A DNA stretch of 64,000 nt, taken from positions 1 to 64,000 of the forward strand of contig NZ_MCBX01000044.1 in NCBI RefSeq assembly GCF_001723685.1, written 5' to 3'. How positions within the stretch are numbered: position 1 is the first letter of the stretch; each line of letters opens with the position of its first letter. The notes beneath the pieces were generated by a model, which had not been told where the DNA came from, did no database searches, and was given only the letters and a program-made list of their open reading frames with translations. The translations under genes were made by a program, and so were the position numbers. Source of the DNA: Candidatus Marithrix sp. Canyon 246. Its GTDB lineage: Bacteria > Pseudomonadota > Gammaproteobacteria > Beggiatoales > Beggiatoaceae. Shown here piece after piece: positions 1 through 17,491 of the stretch.

Positions 1-19
1 AGATGTGTATAAGAGACAG
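1..19 (+). other. Nextera/Tn5 mosaic-end adapter remnant
   Basis: The first 19 bases read AGATGTGTATAAGAGACAG, which is exactly the Tn5 mosaic end used in Nextera libraries. This is library sequence, not genome. The sequence directly after it joins in the middle of a repeat arm, so the contig was probably broken at the repeat and left untrimmed. Nothing upstream of position 20 should be interpreted biologically. Confidence 0.95.
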
Positions 20-41
20 ATCCACGTAATTCGCTGTACTC
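20..41. repeat. Truncated arm of the palindromic element
   Basis: These 22 bases match the right arm of the complete palindrome at 144-220 exactly, from ATCCACGTAATTCG onward. The left arm and loop would lie beyond the adapter and are missing. The bases that follow (CAACAATTA) also match those after the complete copy, so the unit repeated here includes flanking sequence. Confidence 0.85.
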
Positions 42-62
42 AACAATTATATATTATATATT

Positions 63-140
63 ATGTCAGATTTACTTCATAAAGAGCTAAGTGCATATAT
101 TATTGATGCGCAAATTAAAAGTTATATAGTTTCATTCTAA
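63..140 (+). pseudogene. Truncated 5' copy of the GxxExxY-like gene
   Basis: A 25-codon frame begins MSDLLHKELS, the same ten residues that start the full-length gene at 256. It then diverges (AYIIDAQIK) and stops at TAA. AYII-type sequence after that start is usual in GxxExxY proteins, so this looks like the N-terminus of a paralogue whose body has been lost. The palindromic element begins four bases after the stop. A short real peptide cannot be excluded but is unlikely. Confidence 0.6.
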
Positions 141-143
141 TAT

Positions 144-220
144 GAGTACAGCGAATTACGTGGATAAACGAATTAAAATCTTTTCGCCTTATTAGTTTAT
201 CCACGTAATTCGCTGTACTC
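144..220. repeat. Palindromic element, copy 1 (26-bp perfect arms)
   Basis: Positions 144-169 and 195-220 are perfect 26-bp inverted repeats around a 25-base AT-rich loop. The right arm begins GTTTATCCACGTAATTCGC and ends TGTACTC. A second copy lies at 3597-3673 with 25 of 26 arm bases paired and a different loop, and partial or decayed arms occur at 20-41, 16283-16308 and 17323-17346. The arms are conserved and the loop is not, as in REP/MITE-type elements. There is no T-run after the stem, so it is not a typical terminator. Confidence 0.85.
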
Positions 221-255
221 AACAATTAACAATTAACAATTAATAATTAACAATT
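221..255. repeat. Five tandem AACAATT heptamers before the start codon
   Basis: Five 7-base units (four AACAATT and one AATAATT) fill the space between the palindrome and the ATG at 256 exactly. There is no Shine-Dalgarno sequence. Changes in heptamer number would alter the distance from promoter to start codon, so slippage here could affect expression; that is inference. Confidence 0.75.
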
Positions 256-1047
256 ATGTCAGATTTACTTCATAAAGAACTAAGTTTTATTGTTCGAGGG
301 ATTTTGATTGACGTTTATAATAAATTAGGTCCAAAACTCCCTGAAAAATTCTATCAACAAGCTGTATCTTATGGATTAAGAGAACAAGGCATCATCTCTG
401 AATCTGAAAAACAATTCTATGTGCTTTACCGAGATACACCAGCCGGCATTTTTTATGTTGACCATTGGCTTGAAAACGGAAAAATCATCCTTGAATTTAA
501 AGTAGCACCTAATATTATGCCTATTCATCAAGCTCAAACTATTTCCTACCTTAAACTGACTGATGCTGATTTAGGAATTATTGTGAATTTCGGTACCCAT
601 TCCTTACAAGACAAACGCTTACCTAATTTTATTAGGAACAAGAAAGTCAATTTTAAATGGCAACCGAAAACACCAACTGTAAATACTTTATATCCTGCAT
701 TACTCGATAGTCTTTTTCAAGCATTGTATCGAGTACATTTTGTTTTAGGAATTGGCTTTATTCATCGAGTTTATCGACAAGCTGTGATGATTGAATTACA
801 GTCTCAGAGTATTGGTTATGAATATATACGTAAAATTAATTTATTTTATAAAACTCATTGTGTTGGTCAACAAAAGGTTCAAATGATTCGAGTAGAAAAT
901 AAAATTTTATTGGCTGTGTTTGCAATGGAATCAATGGATAAGATTATGGGAATTGTTATGAAAACACGGATGAAACATTTAGGAATGAAAGTTGGAATGT
1001 TAGCTAATTTTTATGGTGAACAGTTAGTAATAGAAACTGTATATTAG
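256..1047 (+). CDS. Two-domain GxxExxY-family-like protein
   Basis: This 263-residue protein looks like a tandem pair of GxxExxY (PDDEXK_3-like) domains. The first, about residues 1-130, has the segment LGPKLPEKFYQQAV in place of the usual LGPGLLExxYxxAL, then IILEFKV and a long QAQTISYLKLTDADLGIIVNF core. The second, about residues 145-263, repeats the layout with VLGIGFIHRVYRQAV, where the conserved Glu is replaced by His, so it is probably not catalytic. Members of this family are small, multicopy and of unsettled function; a nuclease fold is predicted. The start at 256 follows the heptamer repeat without a ribosome-binding site. It is unrelated to the pst genes downstream and looks like an accessory insertion. 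Confidence 0.65.
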   Translation: MSDLLHKELSFIVRGILIDVYNKLGPKLPEKFYQQAVSYGLREQGIISESEKQFYVLYRDTPAGIFYVDHWLENGKIILEFKVAPNIMPIHQAQTISYLKLTDADLGIIVNFGTHSLQDKRLPNFIRNKKVNFKWQPKTPTVNTLYPALLDSLFQALYRVHFVLGIGFIHRVYRQAVMIELQSQSIGYEYIRKINLFYKTHCVGQQKVQMIRVENKILLAVFAMESMDKIMGIVMKTRMKHLGMKVGMLANFYGEQLVIETVY

Positions 1048-1060
1048 TTAAAATTTTTAG

Positions 1061-1100
1061 CTATAGTTCACACTATTGTCATAATAATCTACTATAAATA
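1061..1100 (+). promoter_or_regulatory. Candidate Pho-box/promoter block upstream of pstC
   Basis: CTATAGTTCACACTATTGTC and the following ATAATAATCTACTATAAAT are nearly identical to the block before pstA at 5546-5586. TTGTCAT differs by one base from the PhoB half-site CTGTCAT, and an AT-rich -10-like stretch follows. The second half-site expected in a Pho box is poor. Conservation of the block before two pst genes is the main argument that it is regulatory. Confidence 0.45.
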
Positions 1101-1108
1101 TATACAAT

Positions 1109-3340
1109 ATGAATACTAATTCTTCTTTTGTTTTGTCAACTCGACAATGGCGTATGCTGAAAGATCAAATCGCCAAATATAGCATGACTTTGGGCGGTAT
1201 CAGCATTATTATTGCTATTAGTCTGATTTTCTTTTACCTGTTATATGTTGTCTTGCCGCTGTTTTTGCCGGCAAGTATGAATCATATTGTACAATTTAGC
1301 AGCTCTGATTCAATATATATTGCTACCGAAGAAAAAAATGAGCTTGGTGTTCGGTTTACTAATGACGCTCAAGCGGTTTTTTTTAGTTTGAAAGATGGTA
1401 AGGTAATTTCTAAGTATAAAATTGCTATACCTGATGATGCCTCAATAACTAGTTTTGCTGTTGCTGATCCTGCTACAGATATTATAGCTTTTGGTTTAAA
1501 TGATGGGCGAGCTGTGGTGGTAAAGCATAATTATAAAATTACTTACCCTAATGATGTGCGTGTTATTACTCCTAGTATTCAATATCCTTTAGGTAAGGAA
1601 CCAATTGTAGTTGATGATAAGCGGCGTGCTTTAACTCATCTCGATATTCAATTACAAGGTGCAAGGAATACTTTAGCCGCTATTACTATTGATAAAGATT
1701 TAGTCTTAGCAACTTTTACTAAAGAAGAATCATTTTTAAGTGAATCTAGTGAATTTGAACGTAGTTCTAGTAGTGTTTTAGCTTTACCATCAATAGATAT
1801 AAGTCATTTATTATTAGATAAAGAACAAACAGTCATTTATCTAGCTGATCAAAATGGTCAAATTACTCATATTGATATTAGAACTAAGACTCCTAAAATT
1901 TTACAGCGTCTGCGTGTAGTCGATGTCAATACTAAAATTACTGCTTTAGAATTTCTAACTGGAGATATTTCATTATTAGTAGGTGATTCTAAGGGGCGCA
2001 TTACTCAATGGTTCCCTGTGCGTGACAAAAATAATAATTATATACTTACCAAAATTCGTCAATTTAATGATCAGTCTGCTCCTATAATTTCAATTGCCAC
2101 TGAAGAACGTCGCAAAGGTTTTGTAGCCGCTGATAATAATGGTAATGTTGGGATTTATCATTCGACTGCACATCGTACAATAATGTTAGAAAAAGTTACT
2201 GATGCTGCTATTAAACAGATTTCTATATCTCCACGCGCTGATAGACTATTAATAGCTGATAATAATAAGCAATTGCATGTTTGGGATTTGCATAATAAAC
2301 ACCCTGAAATTTCATGGTCAGCATTATGGGGTAAGGTATGGTATGAAAGCTATGAATCCCCTGATTATGTCTGGCAATCTTCTTCTGCAAATAATGATTT
2401 TGAGCCTAAATTTAGTTTAATACCTTTAGCTTTTGGTACTTTAAAAGCCGCATTTTATGCAATGTTAATTGCCATACCAATTGCAATATTTGGTGCCATT
2501 TATACAGCATATTTTATGGATCCAAAAATGCGTTCTATAGTAAAACCTAGCATTGAAATCATGGCGGCTTTACCAACTGTTATTCTCGGATTTATTGCTG
2601 GTTTATGGTTAGCACCATTAATGGAAAAGAATTTACCGGGATTCTTCATGTTGTTATTGTTGTTACCAATTGCTGTACTAGTGTTTGCTTTTATGATGCA
2701 CAATTTGCCCAAATCACTTAAACATAAAATCTCAACAGGTTGGCAATCAGCTTTATTGATTCCAATAATATTATTAGTAACATGGTCAGCTTTTAGTTTA
2801 AGTTATCCTATAGAAGTTTGGCTTTTCGATGGCAATATGCCAAATTGGTTGACCACTCAACTTGGTGTTGATTTCGATCAACGTAATGCAATAATTGTTG
2901 GAATTGCAATGGGCTTAGCAGTAATTCCTAATATTTTTTCAATGGCAGAAGACGCAGTATTTAGCGTACCTAAACATTTAACAATAGGCTCATTAGCTTT
3001 AGGTGCTACGCCTTGGCAAACTATGGTGAGAGTAGTTATATTGACAGCTAGCCCCGGTATTTTTTCAGCTATTATGATCGGCATGGGAAGAGCTGTTGGT
3101 GAAACCATGATTGTATTAATGGCAACTGGTAATACCCCGATTATGGACTTTAATCTATTTGAAGGTTTACGTACCTTATCAGCAAATATAGCTGTAGAAA
3201 TGCCAGAATCTGAAGTAGCTAGTACACATTATAGAATTTTATTTTTATCTGGTTTAGTTCTGTTTATTTTTACTTTTTTCTTTAACACAATTGCAGAAGT
3301 TGTTCGTCATCGTCTGCGACGCAAATATAGTTCATTGTGA
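1109..3340 (+). CDS. pstC: Phosphate ABC transporter permease PstC (long form)
   Basis: PstC is one of the two inner-membrane permeases of the high-affinity phosphate importer PstSCAB. At 743 residues this is the long form known from Pseudomonas-type systems. A membrane segment at about 30-52 is followed by a ~380-residue extracytoplasmic insert with propeller-like repeats, then the permease domain from about 440. The permease loop is recognisable in [15 protein letters not shown] and GMGRAVGETMIVLMAT. pstS, which usually precedes pstC, is absent from the window, where a GxxExxY-like gene sits instead. The gene should be co-transcribed with pstA, but an opposite-strand gene now separates them. 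Confidence 0.95.
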   Translation: MNTNSSFVLSTRQWRMLKDQIAKYSMTLGGISIIIAISLIFFYLLYVVLPLFLPASMNHIVQFSSSDSIYIATEEKNELGVRFTNDAQAVFFSLKDGKVISKYKIAIPDDASITSFAVADPATDIIAFGLNDGRAVVVKHNYKITYPNDVRVITPSIQYPLGKEPIVVDDKRRALTHLDIQLQGARNTLAAITIDKDLVLATFTKEESFLSESSEFERSSSSVLALPSIDISHLLLDKEQTVIYLADQNGQITHIDIRTKTPKILQRLRVVDVNTKITALEFLTGDISLLVGDSKGRITQWFPVRDKNNNYILTKIRQFNDQSAPIISIATEERRKGFVAADNNGNVGIYHSTAHRTIMLEKVTDAAIKQISISPRADRLLIADNNKQLHVWDLHNKHPEISWSALWGKVWYESYESPDYVWQSSSANNDFEPKFSLIPLAFGTLKAAFYAMLIAIPIAIFGAIYTAYFMDPKMRSIVKPSIEIMAALPTVILGFIAGLWLAPLMEKNLPGFFMLLLLLPIAVLVFAFMMHNLPKSLKHKISTGWQSALLIPIILLVTWSAFSLSYPIEVWLFDGNMPNWLTTQLGVDFDQRNAIIVGIAMGLAVIPNIFSMAEDAVFSVPKHLTIGSLALGATPWQTMVRVVILTASPGIFSAIMIGMGRAVGETMIVLMATGNTPIMDFNLFEGLRTLSANIAVEMPESEVASTHYRILFLSGLVLFIFTFFFNTIAEVVRHRLRRKYSSL

Positions 3341-3345
3341 TATTC

Positions 3346-3378
3346 AGACCTGACAGGTTTTAAAAACCTGTCAGGTCT
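3346..3378. repeat. 16-bp-stem hairpin directly after pstC
   Basis: AGACCTGACAGGTTTT pairs perfectly with AAAACCTGTCAGGTCT across a single base, six bases after the pstC stop. The strong stem could end or stabilise the pstC transcript, but the T-run expected of an intrinsic terminator is missing on both strands. I recall the same CCTGTCAGG palindrome in intergenic regions of unrelated bacteria, which would make it a dispersed repeat; that needs a search. Confidence 0.7.
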
Positions 3379-3723
3379 TAATTTGAAAAATTTCATTTTT
3401 CACAAAACACAAGTTTTTATAAATATCTTTTAAATCATCTATCTTAGTACAATAAATTGTAAACTTGGAATTTTATTTTCTCTTTTTTCTAAATCTTCTT
3501 TAGTTAATGCAGATATAAACTCTTCTAAACTCATTTTTTATTGAAAGTTCTACTTATATGGTATAAGTAGGTACGCAAAAGTTTATTAACAAAAATAAGT
3601 ACAACGAATTACGTGGATAAACAAATTATTTAAATTAAACTTTATTAGTTTATCCACGTAATTCGCTGTACTTAATATTATGTAACTGATGTTAAAAGAG
3701 TTATACGTACCGACATAATATTT
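3379..3723. other. Gene-poor stretch between pstC and the ATPase gene
   Basis: No convincing gene is present. A minus-strand frame of 31 codons (3439-3534, beginning MSLEEFISAL) is open but unrecognised. A perfect 9-bp hairpin lies at 3550-3570 (CTACTTATA, loop TGG). The palindromic element at 3597-3673 is enclosed by a weaker inverted repeat (3570-3590 and 3691-3711, about 16 of 21 bases paired). A further 10-bp pair (AATATTATGT at 3674-3683, complement at 3713-3722) abuts the ATPase stop codon. Confidence 0.55.
3597..3673. repeat. Palindromic element, copy 2
   Basis: Arms at 3597-3622 and 3648-3673 pair over 25 of 26 bases around a 25-base loop. The right arm is the same as in copy 1 apart from its final base, while the loop differs. 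The conserved arm and variable loop suggest selection on, or recent spread of, the hairpin itself. It lies 51 bases from the stop codon of the ATPase gene. Confidence 0.85.
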
Positions 3724-5472
3724 TCATTGTATCGACTCGAACAAATCTAGCTTTTCAGACACTTCAGCATCTACCATATCTTTAGGTAAATATTGAATTA
3801 ATTGATAATATTGCCCCTTATTTAATAAGCGTGGTTCATTAGTTAATCTAGCAAAATTTTCCCAAACATGATCTAAAAACGCGCTTAATTTTTTATGGTT
3901 AGCATTATTAATAAAAGTTTGCCGCTGAAGTGCCGCATCTAATTTTAAATAAGCCGTATAGGCTTGTTTGTCATTATTAAAAATATCTACTAAAATGGCT
4001 TTATTAATTGCTTCTTTTATGCTTGAGGAATTATAATTCGCTTTCACAAAAGCTTCAATTACTTCAGGAACTATAAAATAATTTTCTAATTCATACCTTT
4101 TCCAATATACAGTAACTAAATCATTTTTAATATCATCAATATGTTGTCGATTATCTCCATCAAAAATCGCAATTCCATTTAATGCCGGTATTACAGCTTT
4201 TAGAGCATAAAAATGTTCTTTATGAGAATGATAACTACCAGTTGCTTTATCAATTTCTTTTTCAAAAGAAGCTTGTGGTTCACTATCTTTCACAAAATAA
4301 TAATTTAATTTATTAGTCAAGAAATTTTTTGCAGGATGATCTAGCAAATCTGCGAATGCTTTAAGCATTTCAATATCTGTACTACCTTCAACATATAAGA
4401 TATTTTGAGTAATTTTTGCCTTATAATAATGTTCAATACCGAAATCTTTTAATGCCTTTTTAATCACAGGTTTTTTAGCTAAATTGTTCGCTTCACCATC
4501 AATTAACATTACCAAATTGCTTTCAATAGCATTTTCCAGAATCACTTCAGAATGTGTTGCAATTATAATTTGATTATCATGTTTTTCAGCTATATGATTT
4601 AATAACATAAAAATTTGTCGTTGACGAAGGATTTCTAAATGAGCATCAGGTTCATCAAGTAATAACACAGTATTTTTATGAAGAAAAAGATAGCTAATTA
4701 ATAACAATACTTGTTGTTGCCCTCTACCAGCAATAGCTATATCTAAGCCATTTTTAATAGAAACAGTAGAATATTTTAATTCAATAGAACCTCTACTATT
4801 AAGATAAGTTGGTTTTTTTAAAGTAATTTGAAATAATCTTTGCATTAATTGGGTAATTTCTAGCCAATCTTTAGTATTATGCTTTTCATCATTTTCGATT
4901 ATTCTATAACAAAAATTCCTTAAAACATCAGAAGTCTTACCTTCACCAATTAATACATTAATTCTACCTTCTTGTAATAGCGGCTCCTCAATTGCAATAT
5001 TCCCAATTGGATATAATATTTCTATTTTTAATTCATTTAGATATTCTAATAATGGCTTATTATTAATGCAATCCTTTGCTGGTTGAAAATAAATAACCTC
5101 AGAAGAAGAATATTTAAAATTTAAACTACATTCTATAACCTTCCCATTAAATTCAATACCAACACTAATAGTCATTAATATAGGCAATTTTTGTTTGCGC
5201 AAAGATAAGTTTTGCCAAAAATATTTAGCATGTGGCACCGGCACTGGTGGAATATCTAAACGATTTAATGCAATTGAAGAAGATTTTTTACTATTAAATC
5301 TGGCTTCATACCATTTTGTAATTGCCAATCGCCACAATGCAAGAGCCTGAATCACGGTAGTTTTACCAGAATTATTTGGTCCAATTAATACAGAAGGTTG
5401 ATCTAATTCAATAGTAATTGTTTGTTCAAATAACTTAAAATTCTGTATTTTAAGGTAATGAATTTTTTTCAA
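3724..5472 (-). CDS. OLD-like AAA ATPase with C-terminal TOPRIM-like domain
   Basis: This is an SMC/RecF-type ATPase of the OLD nuclease group. With the start used here, Walker A (IGPNNSGKTT) falls about 30 residues in, as is usual for the family. An ABC-like signature region (AIAGRGQQQVLLLISYLF), Walker B (TVLLLDEPDAHLE) and H-loop (IIIATHSE) follow. The C-terminal third has ILYVEGSTD and later GIAIFDGD, typical of a TOPRIM fold. Such proteins often act in phage defence or DNA processing, but no partner gene (UvrD-like helicase or toxin) is adjacent. The TTG at 5472 is chosen; an in-frame ATG at 5556 would add 28 Phe/Tyr-rich residues and lie in the pstA promoter block. It is transcribed against the pst operon and separates pstC from pstA. 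Confidence 0.75.
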   Translation of the reverse strand: MKKIHYLKIQNFKLFEQTITIELDQPSVLIGPNNSGKTTVIQALALWRLAITKWYEARFNSKKSSSIALNRLDIPPVPVPHAKYFWQNLSLRKQKLPILMTISVGIEFNGKVIECSLNFKYSSSEVIYFQPAKDCINNKPLLEYLNELKIEILYPIGNIAIEEPLLQEGRINVLIGEGKTSDVLRNFCYRIIENDEKHNTKDWLEITQLMQRLFQITLKKPTYLNSRGSIELKYSTVSIKNGLDIAIAGRGQQQVLLLISYLFLHKNTVLLLDEPDAHLEILRQRQIFMLLNHIAEKHDNQIIIATHSEVILENAIESNLVMLIDGEANNLAKKPVIKKALKDFGIEHYYKAKITQNILYVEGSTDIEMLKAFADLLDHPAKNFLTNKLNYYFVKDSEPQASFEKEIDKATGSYHSHKEHFYALKAVIPALNGIAIFDGDNRQHIDDIKNDLVTVYWKRYELENYFIVPEVIEAFVKANYNSSSIKEAINKAILVDIFNNDKQAYTAYLKLDAALQRQTFINNANHKKLSAFLDHVWENFARLTNEPRLLNKGQYYQLIQYLPKDMVDAEVSEKLDLFESIQ

Positions 5473-5545
5473 AATAAGGAAACCTTTATTAATGCAAATA
5501 TAAATTTTTCTAAACTCAATATACTCATAAAAAATGAATGGAAAT

Positions 5546-5586
5546 CTATAGTTCATATTGTTGTCATAATAATTTACTACTATAAT
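5546..5586 (+). promoter_or_regulatory. Candidate Pho-box/promoter block upstream of pstA
   Basis: CTATAGTTCATATTGTTGTC and the following ATAATAATTTACTACTATAAT match the block before pstC except for a few substitutions and small indels. TTGTCAT is the best PhoB-like half-site. This copy would let pstA-pstB-phoU be expressed on their own now that the operon is interrupted. It may have arisen by duplication of the pstC upstream region when the ATPase gene was inserted. Confidence 0.45.
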
Positions 5587-10013: not shown

Positions 10014-10742
10014 ATGAAATTGTCACACAAAATAGTAATGGCTAGTGCTTTACTGGTAAACCTTCCTCTTGCTCAAGCAGAAGAAGTAGCAGGTTTCAAA
10101 TTAAGCGGAAATGTAGCTTTGACGAGTGATTATGTTTGGCGCGGTATTTCGCAAACTAATGAACAATGGGCATTACAAGGCGGCTTTGATGCTGAGCATA
10201 AAAGTGGTTTTTCAATAGGCACATGGGCTTCTAACGTTAATTATAAAGAAACCAATGTTAGTGAAGAAGATCGTGCTAATCTTGAACTTGATGTTTATGC
10301 TGGTTATAGTGGTGAAATTAAAGGTTTTAGTTATGGTGTAACAGCTAGTCGTTATGGCTATCCCGGTGCCGCTAGTAGTTTGAATTACGACTTTTATGAA
10401 TTGGGTTTATCTTTAGGTTATAAACTTCCACAAGGTATTGATCTAGGTTTTGCCTATGATTTTGCTCCAGAATTTTTTGGAGATGTTGATTCTGCTCATC
10501 ATTATAAGTTAAATGCTGGTTATTCTTTACCTAATGGTATTGGTTTCAGTGGGCATGTTGGTCAACAAATGTTTAGTGATAATAATAAAGCTGGTGATGA
10601 TTACCTTTATTATGGTGTCTCAGCTTCTTATAGTATTTTCGGTTTTGATGCTTCAGTATCTTATAGTGATACTGATTTAGACAATTCTGATACATTAGGT
10701 GCAGATGAACGGATATTCTTTACCTTAAGTAGAAGTCTTTAA
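10014..10742 (+). CDS. TorF-family putative outer-membrane porin, copy 1
   Basis: This 242-residue protein has a signal peptide ending near ANLPLAQAEE-type sequence and then the family opening NVALTSDYVWRGISQTN. GTWASNVNY, a DVYAGYSGE strand and a C-terminal strand ending in FFTLSRSL support an outer-membrane beta barrel. The family (TIGR02001, often called TorF-like putative porin) is of uncertain substrate. A ribosome-binding site (AATAGGAG) precedes the ATG. It is followed after 49 bases by a paralogue, so the two are a tandem duplication. Confidence 0.85.
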   Translation: MKLSHKIVMASALLVNLPLAQAEEVAGFKLSGNVALTSDYVWRGISQTNEQWALQGGFDAEHKSGFSIGTWASNVNYKETNVSEEDRANLELDVYAGYSGEIKGFSYGVTASRYGYPGAASSLNYDFYELGLSLGYKLPQGIDLGFAYDFAPEFFGDVDSAHHYKLNAGYSLPNGIGFSGHVGQQMFSDNNKAGDDYLYYGVSASYSIFGFDASVSYSDTDLDNSDTLGADERIFFTLSRSL

Positions 10743-10791
10743 ACTTTAATTCTGCTGCATCTAATCACAATAATAATAAAAGGAAAAATGG

Positions 10792-11550
10792 ATGAAATTC
10801 CCATATAAAAGCATTATAGTAGGTGCTTTATTAACAAATATTGTACAAGCAGCAGAACTAGGTTCTTTTGATATTACTGGTAATATGACATTGGCAAGTG
10901 ATTATGTCTTTCGCGGTAAGTCACAAACTAATGAAGGTTTTGCTGTACAAGGTGGGCTGGATTTTGAACATAAAAATAGTAATTTTATATTCGGCACATG
11001 GGCTTCTAATGTTAAGTTATTAGAAGATCAGACTGTAATCCCTAATGATCGTGCTGATATTAAAGTAGATTTTTATGTAGGTTATGGTGATAATTTAGAT
11101 CAATACCTTGATGGTTTAAGTTATACTGTTAAAGCTAATCGTTATACCTACCCCGGAGCTGCTAGTAGCTTAAATTATGATACGACTGAATACAGCATAA
11201 ATTTAAGTTATACCACCAAAAAAGATACAGATTTTGGATTAGAAAAACTACCTTATTTAATTTCAGAGGGTGTGACTTTCAATTTACTATATGATTTTTC
11301 TCCCGAGTTTTCTGGTGCAGGTACATCTCATCATTATGGTTTAAATGTGAATTATACATTTGCTAATGGTTTAGGTGTTGGTGGAGAAATTGGTCAACAA
11401 TTAATTGAAGATAACGATAAAGCTGGAGATGATTACCTTTATTATGGTGCTAAAGTCTCTTATTCTATAGCTGGATTTGATGCTTCTGTTGCTTATAGTG
11501 ATGCTGAAACAGATCAACTTCTTGTTTTTGCATTAAGTAAAGATTTCTAG
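10792..11550 (+). CDS. TorF-family putative outer-membrane porin, copy 2
   Basis: This is the 252-residue paralogue of the preceding gene. It shares NMTLASDYVFRGKSQTNEGF, GTWASNVK, YPGAASSLNYD and DKAGDDYLYYGA, and ends in the aromatic-terminated strand FALSKDF expected of outer-membrane barrels. Insertions relative to copy 1 (around residues 145-170) lengthen one loop. The signal peptide is shorter. AAGGAAAAATGG precedes the start. The two copies are divergent enough that duplication is not recent. Confidence 0.85.
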   Translation: MKFPYKSIIVGALLTNIVQAAELGSFDITGNMTLASDYVFRGKSQTNEGFAVQGGLDFEHKNSNFIFGTWASNVKLLEDQTVIPNDRADIKVDFYVGYGDNLDQYLDGLSYTVKANRYTYPGAASSLNYDTTEYSINLSYTTKKDTDFGLEKLPYLISEGVTFNLLYDFSPEFSGAGTSHHYGLNVNYTFANGLGVGGEIGQQLIEDNDKAGDDYLYYGAKVSYSIAGFDASVAYSDAETDQLLVFALSKDF

Positions 11551-11553
11551 CAG

Positions 11554-12789
11554 TTGCTTTCCCTTCCTGATATCCTGCATATCTGCCCATCAACTAAGCG
11601 TTTATGGGTAGCTTATAGTGGCGGTTTAGATTCACATGTCTTATTACATCTTCTCGCCCAATCTGATCTTCAATTACGCGCGATTCATATTAATCATGGT
11701 TTAAATCCAGACGCTGATTATTGGGCTGAACATTGCCAAAAGGTTTGTAAAGCCTTAGATGTGCCTTGTGATATTATCAAAGTTAAGGTTGAAGTTGCCG
11801 CTAGAGAAAGTCTTGAAGCTAAGGCTAGAACAGCTCGTTATCAGGCAATTCTTCAAACAATCACGCCTGACGATGTAGTTTTAACCGCTCAACATGCTGA
11901 TGATCAAGCTGAAACCTTATTATTACAATTATTACGTGGTAGTGGAGTTGCCGGTTTAGCAGCTATGCCTGAAAATAAAGGCTGGTTAGTTCGCCCTTTA
12001 TTAGGATATACTCGTGCTGAATTATATCAATATGCTCAAGCGGCTAACTTAAAATGGATAGAAGATAGTAGTAATGCCGATACTCGCTTTGATCGTAATT
12101 TTTTACGTCATGAAATAATGCCTAGGCTTCAGCAACGTTGGGCAAGTGTTAGTCATATAATAAGCCGCGCTGCTAGTCATCAAGCAGAAGCAAATGAATT
12201 AATACAAGAATTAGCTGCACAAGATTTACAACAATGCCAAGGGCATAAGGCTGACATCTTGAGTTTAGATAAACTATCTAAATTTTCTGCTGCACGACAA
12301 AAAAATGTTTTAAGATTTTGGATCAAAAAACTTGCTTTACCCTCTCCTACAACTAAACAATTACAACAAATTGTTAGCAACTTAATGACGGCAAAAGCTG
12401 ATAGTCAGCCACTAGTAAGTTGGCAAGGTGCGGAAATACGCCGCTATCGTAGAAATTTATTTGCCATGCCAAACCTACCCCCTCCACCTTCCCCTACAAA
12501 AACTATAAAATGGTTAGTTTCCTCCCCATCGCCGCGTTTACCTCTAGGTAACTTAAAATTAACACAAGCTTTACCAAGCGGCACTGAATTAGAAATACGG
12601 TTTCGACAAGGCGGAGAAGTTATTCGCTTAAATAAGCATCAGCGCGTAGTGAAAAAATTATTACAAGCGGCAGGATTGCCACCTTGGCAACGTCAATTTA
12701 TCCCTTTTATTTATTTAGATAATGTACTGGTAGCTATTCCCGGTATTGCTGAAGAAAATGGCTGGGATATTGAATGGATTACTAATTAA
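11554..12789 (+). CDS. tilS: tRNA(Ile)-lysidine synthetase TilS
   Basis: TilS modifies C34 of the CAU-anticodon tRNA(Ile) to lysidine so that it reads AUA and accepts isoleucine. The 411-residue protein has the PP-loop motif YSGGLDSHVLL at about residues 21-31, the RAIHINHGLN segment, the family motif TAQHADDQAETLLLQLLRGSG and an AxxRYxxL helix. A TilS-type C-terminal substrate-binding region follows. The start is a TTG three bases after the upstream stop; it matches the usual position of the family's N-terminus, and no ATG lies nearby. An essential gene. Confidence 0.93.
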   Translation: MLSLPDILHICPSTKRLWVAYSGGLDSHVLLHLLAQSDLQLRAIHINHGLNPDADYWAEHCQKVCKALDVPCDIIKVKVEVAARESLEAKARTARYQAILQTITPDDVVLTAQHADDQAETLLLQLLRGSGVAGLAAMPENKGWLVRPLLGYTRAELYQYAQAANLKWIEDSSNADTRFDRNFLRHEIMPRLQQRWASVSHIISRAASHQAEANELIQELAAQDLQQCQGHKADILSLDKLSKFSAARQKNVLRFWIKKLALPSPTTKQLQQIVSNLMTAKADSQPLVSWQGAEIRRYRRNLFAMPNLPPPPSPTKTIKWLVSSPSPRLPLGNLKLTQALPSGTELEIRFRQGGEVIRLNKHQRVVKKLLQAAGLPPWQRQFIPFIYLDNVLVAIPGIAEENGWDIEWITN

Positions 12790-12899
12790 TAGTAACCATA
12801 ATAAAATAAAATACATAAAGTTATTGCTTTTTTAAAACATTATGATTATAATGGTTTCCGTTGTTAAACAAATATCATAATTTTTATAGGAAAATTAAT

Positions 12900-14012
12900 A
12901 TGTTGAGTCGTAATTCAATACTCAAATCATGTTCATTGGCAATAGGCGTTTCAATGATCAGCATTTCTATGCAAGCAATGTCAGGAACAGTTTGTTTATA
13001 TGAACATGCTAATTATAAGGGTTGGAAAAAGTGTTACAGCACAAATAAATCCAATTTTGTATCATTGGGTATCAATGATAAAGTTTCTTCAATAAAAGTA
13101 TCTCCCGGCACAAGAGCAGTGTTATTTCAACATACTAACTATCAAGGTTACAAACGTGTTTATACTAAAAACACTGCTTGGGTGGGTAAAGGTGTTAATG
13201 ATCAATATTCTTCTCTGAAGGTAAAGTCTAAACGTATCCCAAAACACACCGTTTGTTTATATCAACACGCTAATTATAAAGGTTGGAGAAAGTGTTTCAG
13301 AGCAGATAAACCTAACTTTGTATCATTAGGTATTAATGATCAAGTTTCTTCAGTCAAAGTATCTCCCGGCACAAGAGCAGTGTTATTTCAACATACTAAC
13401 TATCAAGGTTACAAACGTGTTTATACTAAAAACACTGCTTGGGTGGGTAAAGGTGTTAATGATCAATATTCTTCTCTGAAGGTAAAGTCTAAACGTATCC
13501 CAAAACACACCGTTTGTTTATATCAACACGCTAATTATAAAGGTTGGAGAAAGTGTTTCAGAGCAGATAAACCTAACTTTGTATCATTAGGTATTAATGA
13601 TCAAGTTTCTTCAGTCAAAGTATCTCCCGGCACAAGAGCAGTGTTATTTCAACATACTAACTATCAAGGTTACAAACGTGTTTATACTAAAAACACTGCT
13701 TGGGTGGGTAAAGGTGTTAATGATCAATATTCTTCTCTGAAGGTAAAGTCTAAACGTATCCCAAAACACACCGTTTGTTTATATCAACACGCTAATTATA
13801 AAGGTTGGAGAAAGTGTTTCAGAGCAGATAAACCTAACTTTGTACAATTGCATATCAATGATCAAGTTTCTTCAGTCAAAGTATCTCCCGGTGCAAAAGC
13901 TGTGTTATTTCAACATATTAACTATCGAGGTTATAAACGTGTTTATACTACAAACACTCCTTGGATAGGTAGAAGTGTTAATGATCAATACTCTTCTCTC
14001 AGAGTAAGATAA
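12900..14012 (+). CDS. Secreted protein with eight beta/gamma-crystallin motifs
   Basis: After a signal peptide (MLSRNSILKSCSLAIGVSMI and following) come four ~87-residue units, each made of two crystallin-type Greek-key motifs. Odd motifs read VCLYQHANYKGWRKC and even motifs AVLFQHTNYQGYKRVY. Nearly every motif ends in NDQVSS or NDQYSS, the N/D-N/D-x-x-S/T-S calcium-binding signature, so this is probably a calcium-binding secreted or cell-surface protein. The ATG at 12900 has an ATAGGAAA ribosome-binding site; an upstream TTG frame lacks one. The middle units are identical at the DNA level, which indicates recent unit duplication or gene conversion. Confidence 0.85.
   Translation: MLSRNSILKSCSLAIGVSMISISMQAMSGTVCLYEHANYKGWKKCYSTNKSNFVSLGINDKVSSIKVSPGTRAVLFQHTNYQGYKRVYTKNTAWVGKGVNDQYSSLKVKSKRIPKHTVCLYQHANYKGWRKCFRADKPNFVSLGINDQVSSVKVSPGTRAVLFQHTNYQGYKRVYTKNTAWVGKGVNDQYSSLKVKSKRIPKHTVCLYQHANYKGWRKCFRADKPNFVSLGINDQVSSVKVSPGTRAVLFQHTNYQGYKRVYTKNTAWVGKGVNDQYSSLKVKSKRIPKHTVCLYQHANYKGWRKCFRADKPNFVQLHINDQVSSVKVSPGAKAVLFQHINYRGYKRVYTTNTPWIGRSVNDQYSSLRVR
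13096..13843 (+). repeat. Tandem 261-bp repeat within the crystallin gene
   Basis: Sequence at position n matches n plus 261 without visible difference across this stretch, about 2.9 periods. The period is 87 codons, so unit gain or loss keeps the frame. The first half-unit (before 13096) and the last unit (after 13843) have diverged. Such repeats tend to collapse in short-read assemblies, so copy number is uncertain. Confidence 0.9.
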
Positions 14013-14028
14013 TTCCCTTTAGATTAAA

Positions 14029-14050
14029 TAATGGTACTTAGGTACCATTA
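14029..14050. terminator. Hairpin after the crystallin gene
   Basis: TAATGGTAC and GTACCATTA form a perfect 9-bp stem around TTAG, 17 bases after the crystallin stop codon. No strong T-run follows; a C/T-rich stretch begins nearby. It may end transcription before the methyltransferase gene at 14206. Confidence 0.4.
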
Positions 14051-14205
14051 AATTCCCTTCCTTTACCTTTCCCTTTTTTCTTGTATCAATTTTGCATCAA
14101 AATCCAATATCAAGTAAATTTCACTTGATTATATCGGAATATTAGTAAATAATAATCTAAGAATATAATTTTTTTTATAAATATTAATTAATAGGATTAA
14201 TAAAA

Positions 14206-16282: not shown

Positions 16283-16308
16283 GTTTATTCCGAAAATCCG
16301 TTGTACTT
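16283..16308. repeat. Decayed arm of the palindromic element
   Basis: GTTTATTCCGAAAATCCGTT and the following GTACTT match the element arm at about 20 of 26 positions, with both ends conserved and the middle diverged. No partner arm is visible nearby. It lies just upstream of the L3 remnant. Confidence 0.45.
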
Positions 16309-17322: not shown

Positions 17323-17346
17323 GTTTATTTCTTAATTCGTTGTACT
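17323..17346. repeat. Decayed arm of the palindromic element
   Basis: GTTTAT and ATTCGTTGTACT, the two ends of the element arm, are present with a changed, one-base-shorter middle. Together with 16283-16308 it brackets the L3 remnant and the secreted-protein gene. Confidence 0.4.
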
Positions 17347-17491
17347 ACCTTTTTATTATCAACATACTAATAAAACTAAGAATAGCCTACAGATCTGTAA
17401 TGTTACGCATTCAAACACCGACTTAAACATCAAGTGGCATAATTTGGTAAAATATGTAAAAAAACGCATTTTTTAGTTAAGAGGTATTTGT

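Follow-up and report, generated by a model that had tools for sequence, protein, structure and literature searches.

The palindromes and the gene beside them

The window analysed here comprises the initial 64 kb of contig C37 from the 3.24-Mb genome of Candidatus Marithrix sp. Canyon 246 (hereafter G000), and the subject is a family of hairpin-forming palindromes, family A, found there beside a gene of the GxxExxY protein family. Two complete family-A palindromes are present, at 144-220 (arms of 26 bp, loop of 25 nt) and at 3597-3673 (26-bp arms with one outer mismatch), and folding them as single-stranded DNA gives energies of -29 and -23.6 kcal/mol (z -10.3 and -9.8), respectively. Scanning the window with a 19-mer of the arm at up to three mismatches returned four matches, against 0.02 expected from shuffles. 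A sequence-only reading of this DNA had described the two palindromes as sharing conserved 26-bp arms around differing loops, and this is borne out by the sequence, the folding and the genome-wide counts given below. That reading had also proposed partial or decayed arms at three other places. The one at 20..41 (+ strand) is indeed a family-A arm, although truncated by the contig start. Those at 16283..16307 and 17323..17347 (both + strand) are not decayed copies, since they show seven and nine mismatches to family A as against one to sister family B and none to sister family C, respectively; they are lone arms of these two families, of which B copies and C-type palindromes occur elsewhere in G000.

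The first palindrome ends 36 bp upstream of the GxxExxY gene (256..1047, + strand), confirming the neighbour that had been proposed for it. The encoded protein contains two PDDEXK_3 domains (PF13366, 3.7e-43, in two stretches) and matches TIGR04256 (7.8e-43) with 145.5 bits, the curated cut-off being 35. Alignment of nine double-domain proteins shows that E30, D69, E80-x-K82 and Q94 of the first domain are invariant; the second domain lacks the ExK motif. No sequence relatives were found in the PDB at E values up to 1 and a single-sequence structure model was unusable (predicted local distance difference test, pLDDT, 36.5), so that the PD-(D/E)XK fold rests on the Pfam assignment, from which the protein is predicted to be a member of the PD-(D/E)XK superfamily and a putative nuclease.

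Copy number and distribution of family A

The genome-wide arm count proposed in the sequence-only reading yielded 67 matches in G000 (35 + 32; 19-base arm, up to three mismatches), 35 of them exact, compared to two for the reversed pattern. Within the G000 stretches that were fetched, up to five mismatches gave 26 pairs together with 18 arms standing singly (the weakest matches include a few doubtful ones), and some of the single arms are half-elements broken inside the loop. Confinement of the copies to the window and a single recent duplication were both considered as grounds for dismissing the family, which withstood both. Across 57 genomes searched, a 25-base arm was present in eight, all of them among the 36 genomes of the same taxonomic family. 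G032 has 64 family-A matches and G018 has 1,712 (836 + 876), often in same-orientation arrays, several of which have left-facing arms on one flank and right-facing arms on the other. Among the matches listed in a scan of named genomes, family A was found in Ca. Parabeggiatoa, Ca. Marithrix and one Thiotrichaceae metagenome-assembled genome. The arm also occurs on one contig each labelled Bacillaceae (L136) and Flavobacteriaceae (L155), which are probably binning errors.

Arms of family A begin AGTACARCGAATT and carry neither a GTAG nor a CGTC tag. A resemblance of TTATCCACG to the DnaA box was considered and dropped, as the G018 members read TTATCCGCG. A periodicity of about 9-11 bp is suggestive only: shuffles gave P<0.05 for 12 of 21 arms picked by eye and for none of three controls, with P 0.34 for the window's own arm. 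Two open frames cross an arm (L045:1795-2055 and L054:1950-2447), reading it as a STTNYVDKRI-like peptide, and are possible in-gene insertions.

Conserved arms and exchangeable centres

Arms and centres of the palindromes differ in conservation. For 23 distinct pairs in G000 the mean identity is 0.959 in the arms and 0.513 in the loops (shuffled 0.379), with a related partner for 17 of the 23 loops; for 57 pairs at loci from the named-genome scan the corresponding values are 0.970 and 0.285 (shuffled 0.231), and only 10 of the 57 loops have a related partner. In G000 the loops are 19 to 173 nt long, in the other set 32 to 228 nt. The second palindrome of the window lies within a larger repeat, about 154 bp in length (3564..3717, delimited by alignment of related copies, with ends TAAGTAGGTACG and CGTACCGACATA), which has further copies in G000 with closely similar flanks. 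Relative to these fixed flanks the 25-nt loop is found in either orientation, six copies (C2, C3, C40:1975, C40:3404, C9 and C34:144307) having one and five (the window copy at 3597, C44, C30, C40:8805 and C7) the other; C40:1975 and C40:3404, which are 99% identical across 194 bp, may represent one event. The comparison of arm and loop identities, in which duplicates were collapsed, shows a subset of these copies. The presence of both orientations between conserved flanks indicates either that the centre inverts or that the palindrome re-inserts either way round. An A/G difference in the left arm is mostly independent of the orientation of the loop, which places the exchanged segment within the perfect part of the arms.

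Sister families with differing arms coexist in G000. By eye, the arms of A, B and C and those near related nuclease genes share an outer AGTACARCGRAT and an inner AACGRAT, the middle being variable.

GxxExxY genes and matching palindromes

The association of palindromes with GxxExxY genes extends well beyond the window. Our comparison used 30 of the GxxExxY matches from 12 relatives together with three of G000 (33 loci in 13 genomes), and a palindrome was counted if it had at least 20 matched arm bases and lay within 300 bp of the gene, taken as the longest open reading frame (ORF) over the match, a choice that could be incorrect at certain loci outside Beggiatoaceae. Twelve loci were dropped from scoring as second domains of the same gene or matches poorer than 1e-5, and four others as too close to a contig end, including the window gene, which is thus uncounted. 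Among the 17 scorable genes of Beggiatoaceae, 11 have a palindrome beside them and eight have one on both sides, with an arm sequence common to both sides in seven of these eight. The controls, 28 scored PIN-domain loci (from 30 taken out of a much longer list in 12 relatives), gave a palindrome at five, palindromes on both sides at none (8/17 vs 0/28, P=1.1e-4) and shared arms at none. Aligning the upstream with the downstream flank likewise revealed inverted repeats above shuffles at 14 of 17 GxxExxY genes and at none of the 28 controls (P=4e-9), and direct repeats at 14 of 17 and four of 28, respectively. The homologue of the window gene in G001, a relative of the same genus, has a family-B-like palindrome on both sides.

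The type of palindrome follows the phylogeny of the gene. Thirteen genes were typed by eye into a AGTACARCGRAT type (the window gene, L036, L247, L242, L236 and L229), a ACKACARGGATT type (L241, L228 and L234) and a TCTGAATC/TCAGAATT type (L233, L225, L227 and L232), the closest palindrome to L236 being about 450 bp away. A maximum-likelihood tree of the first domain resolves the three types as separate groups with supports of 100/99, 99/98 and 100/99 (ultrafast bootstrap 99-100% for each clade). The type changes twice on the tree, which is the minimum possible, compared to a mean of 6.1 when shuffled, and none of 200 shuffles was as low; the labels behind this count were assigned by eye by the analyst, and six more genes on the tree are untyped or of another type. 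The ORFs neighbouring members of the first clade differ, as judged by their sequences, which places gene and palindromes jointly in more than one context.

GxxExxY matches at E up to 1e-10 occur in 57 of 299 Pseudomonadota genomes, G000 included. At 26 scored loci from the best 30 outside Beggiatoaceae, a short repeat was found as inverted copies on the two flanks at 11 and as direct copies at three, the former exceeding the PIN set of Beggiatoaceae (P=8e-5), a control that is not genome-matched; most of the genomes concerned belong to one family and are therefore not independent. Among plasmids (seven regions in six records, a sample exclusive of the Bacteroides and Prevotella records and of a third Gemmatirosa place), one Gemmatirosa gene has palindromes of three 11-bp units on both sides, one Bernardetia gene a weak inverted repeat (5.5 above the shuffle maximum) and one Fusobacteria gene a direct repeat. 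In the viral contigs searched no GxxExxY relative was confirmed.

Are the palindromes mobilized by GxxExxY proteins?

We interpret the palindromes as non-autonomous mobile hairpins resembling REPINs (doublets of repetitive extragenic palindromic, REP, sequences that form hairpins), part of a broader class whose palindrome types go with particular GxxExxY clades and whose hairpins the GxxExxY protein would bind and cut, and we assign this reading a probability of roughly 0.55. GxxExxY genes are rare near family-A copies, so that for family A itself we infer mobilization from its sister families. In the mechanism that we envisage, the protein would bind and cut the hairpin or cruciform that its cognate arm forms on extrusion, the N-terminal domain cutting and the catalytically degenerate C-terminal domain helping to recognise the arm; the cut ends would then be repaired or re-inserted with palindromic symmetry, so that arms are copied to new places, the centre may be flipped or replaced in processing, and the nuclease gene or a neighbouring gene is occasionally carried along. 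For family A, the enzyme acting in trans would be the window GxxExxY or a relative.

Several observations weigh against this interpretation. The window's own GxxExxY gene, like L227, has a palindrome on one side only, and six of the 17 Beggiatoaceae genes have none inside 300 bp. In the best 30 loci of other Pseudomonadota a compact palindrome was found on either side of two of 28 genes and on both sides of none, and flank repeats were absent at four of the seven plasmid regions. Among 220 neighbour ORFs in 145 stretches carrying, or fetched for, family-A arms, GxxExxY was encountered once, as the window's own gene; this count omits L112 and L113, which are covered by a separate check of 95 named-genome loci that found none. 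The two double-domain GxxExxY genes of G018 have no family-A arm within their fetched flanks, and G032 has weak GxxExxY matches (E 6e-4 or poorer) and no gene flanked by family A. Neither a consistent target duplication among 90 pairs nor an empty site, in pattern and locus comparisons among G000 and relatives, was found.

When the ends of these 90 pairs were scanned, GTAC stood at both ends in 86, where it either belongs to the arm or represents a duplication of 4 bp, and beyond it the largest excess was 10 of 90 compared to 3.9 expected (3 nt, two bases out). The joined-target pattern within the larger repeat had no match in G000 or G001. The pst locus of G001 carries neither a family-A arm nor a GxxExxY gene; as the whole pstC-pstA block differs between the two genomes and the G000 contig starts just upstream, it provides no clean junction. 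Two other candidates for an empty site were rejected, C34 compared with G001 because the region is rearranged and duplicated, and the G001 cassette compared with G000 because only the left flank is common to both; in the stretch from G035, bases 1-4975 are unmatched in G002 and G026 except for one palindrome-like match. Direct repeats lie beside two cassettes. In the window, a shortened duplicate of the GxxExxY leader and first codons (42..92, + strand) repeats 235-285 with 86% identity, and in G001 the cassette at L219 is bounded by a direct repeat of 61 bp (93%); both fit a duplication made on insertion, short of proof.

An unrelated enzyme could instead mobilize the palindromes, be it a REP-associated tyrosine transposase (RAYT), an insertion sequence (IS) transposase or an AAA-ATPase_like/PDDEXK_9 protein, with the GxxExxY genes as passengers or neighbours. 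Genes for AAA-ATPase_like proteins (PF09820) adjoin family-A palindromes at three G000 loci (L042, L055 and L041, on C44, C30 and C40), one of them with PDDEXK_9, and that at L042:2168-3730 lies between two family-A copies; a cluster of neighbours at six loci that includes a LamG protein also recurs, alongside smaller clusters, and many Parabeggiatoa copies have no GxxExxY nearby. However, the check for REP-associated transposases that had been suggested from the sequence came out negative for family A in G000: three of its four Y1_Tnp genes, including one that borders on the Pfam cut-off, have palindromes of other types beside them (on both sides in two cases), in the same layout as GxxExxY genes, and the four genes have no family-A match nearby among the 67, leaving a RAYT as the owner of family A in G000 unsupported. 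A RAYT-like place was seen in one of the 145 stretches, the transposase survey itself covering G000, and passengers would not be expected to match their palindromes clade by clade. We consider this explanation unlikely, though the most serious of the alternatives. Since the palindromes beside Y1_Tnp and GxxExxY genes differ, one genome evidently holds several palindrome families beside different enzymes. The earlier suggestion of a hairpin served by a transposase or nuclease thus survives in its nuclease half, through the sister families, and not as a REP-associated transposase in G000.

The hairpins might also be host elements, such as bidirectional terminators, mRNA stabilisers or protein sites, with arms under selection and spread by duplication and gene conversion. 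Strong hairpins with conserved arms and free loops would suit such a role, and of the 24 complete G000 pairs that have a called ORF (70 aa or longer) on each side, 18 lie between codirectional, four between convergent and two between divergent ORFs. Sister families with different arms in one genome, the same-orientation arrays of G018 and the half-elements broken in the loop all speak against it, and it leaves the GxxExxY link unexplained, so that we rate it as less probable again. Slightly lower still we place the proposal that GxxExxY genes are homing-like selfish genes which invade existing palindromes that spread independently. It would account for a nuclease gene between matched palindromes in different contexts and for the 61-bp repeat around the G001 cassette, but some GxxExxY genes have no palindromes and no palindrome was caught as a split target. 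Finally, short-read assembly or amplification could have made the repeats or the loop inversions. The window does begin with an exact 19-mer, AGATGTGTATAAGAGACAG (1..19, + strand), which we take to be the Tn5/Nextera mosaic-end adapter; the contig start is partly library sequence and bases 1-19 are not genomic. Some arm copies, moreover, lie near contig ends (C3, C22, C23 and C37). Yet the same arms recur in independently sequenced genomes, other copies lie deep within long contigs, and the perfect inner arm (about 18-27 bp) and the whole element (about 77 bp) should fall below the usual read length, all of which makes an artefact very improbable.

To our knowledge GxxExxY proteins, which occur in several bacterial phyla, have no assigned function. 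Among interspersed repeats, those of the CCACGAAGGACACGAAG and CTGAATCAGGATTTACAGG types are common and have no known explanation. A broader and more tentative proposition, to which we lend somewhat less than even odds, is that palindromic mobile elements with GxxExxY proteins as their enzymes form a class apart, in effect REPtrons in which a PD-(D/E)XK nuclease replaces the tyrosine transposase, each clade being specific for its palindrome, with the centre inverted or replaced, and the CCACGAAGGACACGAAG and CTGAATCAGGATTTACAGG repeats being included. Were another enzyme family, unrelated to the first, to have a similar role, this would provide a function for GxxExxY and an origin for several repeat families, and the match of clade to palindrome offers ready enzyme-substrate pairs to test.

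Relation to known systems

Bacterial genomes are rich in REP-like palindromes, for which the RAYT is the enzyme described in the passages concerned. Family A shares with the REPINs and REPtrons portrayed in passages of PMC3116915, PMC8266576 and PMC3733652 its spaced inverted doublets forming hairpins in many copies and clusters, and the class shares with them genes between cognate palindromes and the coexistence in one genome of several families, each with an enzyme of its own. It differs in that family-A arms are without the GTAG/CGTC tag, the linked enzyme is of the PD-(D/E)XK superfamily rather than a HUH transposase, and no cognate RAYT gene flanked by a family-A palindrome was found among the Y1_Tnp genes of G000 or in the 145 stretches. 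The initial description of the elements as REP/MITE-like (MITE, miniature inverted-repeat transposable element) therefore holds for their REP- or REPIN-like anatomy and dispersal and fails for a classical MITE. Terminal inverted repeats are present, as in a MITE of a DDE transposon, but there is no consistent target duplication, and interiors are mostly non-homologous outside G000 and mixed within it.

The nearest precedent for a link between nuclease and repeats, as far as the passages of PMC4853749 go, is the suggestion that a MITE in hupL of Ca. Thiomargarita nelsonii derives from a PD-(D/E)XK_2 (YhgA) element. Here too, interspersed inverted repeats in related sulfur bacteria are linked to a PD-(D/E)XK nuclease; the families differ, however (PF12784 there, PF13366 here), the hupL element has the usual structure of a MITE, its direct repeat being 10 bp and its inverted repeat 19 bp long, and those passages report no clade-by-clade match (PMC4853749). 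TIRtrons, with TIRYT transposase genes between non-REP inverted repeats and some dispersed families, are similar in arrangement, but in the passages describing them their enzyme is a tyrosine (HUH) transposase (PMC3733652). In the open-licence papers other than preprints, no report among the matches listed linked a GxxExxY/PDDEXK_3 nuclease to palindromes; the passages that name GxxExxY are a table entry for an algal virus and a remark on reverse transcriptases, and those of PMC5728499 concern only clustered regularly interspaced short palindromic (CRISPR) repeats.

Two further comparisons can be made by description only. The Drosophila foldback elements (FB/Galileo) consist of long inverted repeats, built from tandem sub-repeats, around a centre that varies or is missing and are in this respect comparable to the G018 arrays, although they are eukaryotic and much larger. 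Integron attC sites have short R/L core boxes in arms that are otherwise unconserved and lie beside an integrase, whereas here the whole arm is conserved.

Neighbouring genes and other features of the window

Similar genes for exported proteins lie 65-156 bp from a family-A palindrome at four G000 loci (L058, L060, L062 and L073; Pfam identifies LamG in that of L062), a pattern suggestive of joint duplication of gene and palindrome. A palindrome of another family, AGACCTGACAGGTTTTAAAAACCTGTCAGGTCT, is located at 3346..3378 of the window; palindromes of this type also flank a Y1_Tnp gene at another G000 locus (L034), have dozens of matches in G001, and belong to a separate system. Between pstC and pstA, positions 3724-5556 encode an AAA ATPase that is weakly NsnB/AriA/GajA/PtuA-like by PADLOC. 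At the same place G001 has a different ATP-binding gene with a companion, and the pst operon therefore appears to be a site where accessory or defence genes are inserted. Further downstream, the region 10200-14069, with 261-bp tandem repeats (four copies, 12987-14069) and further internal repeats, probably encodes a repeat protein.

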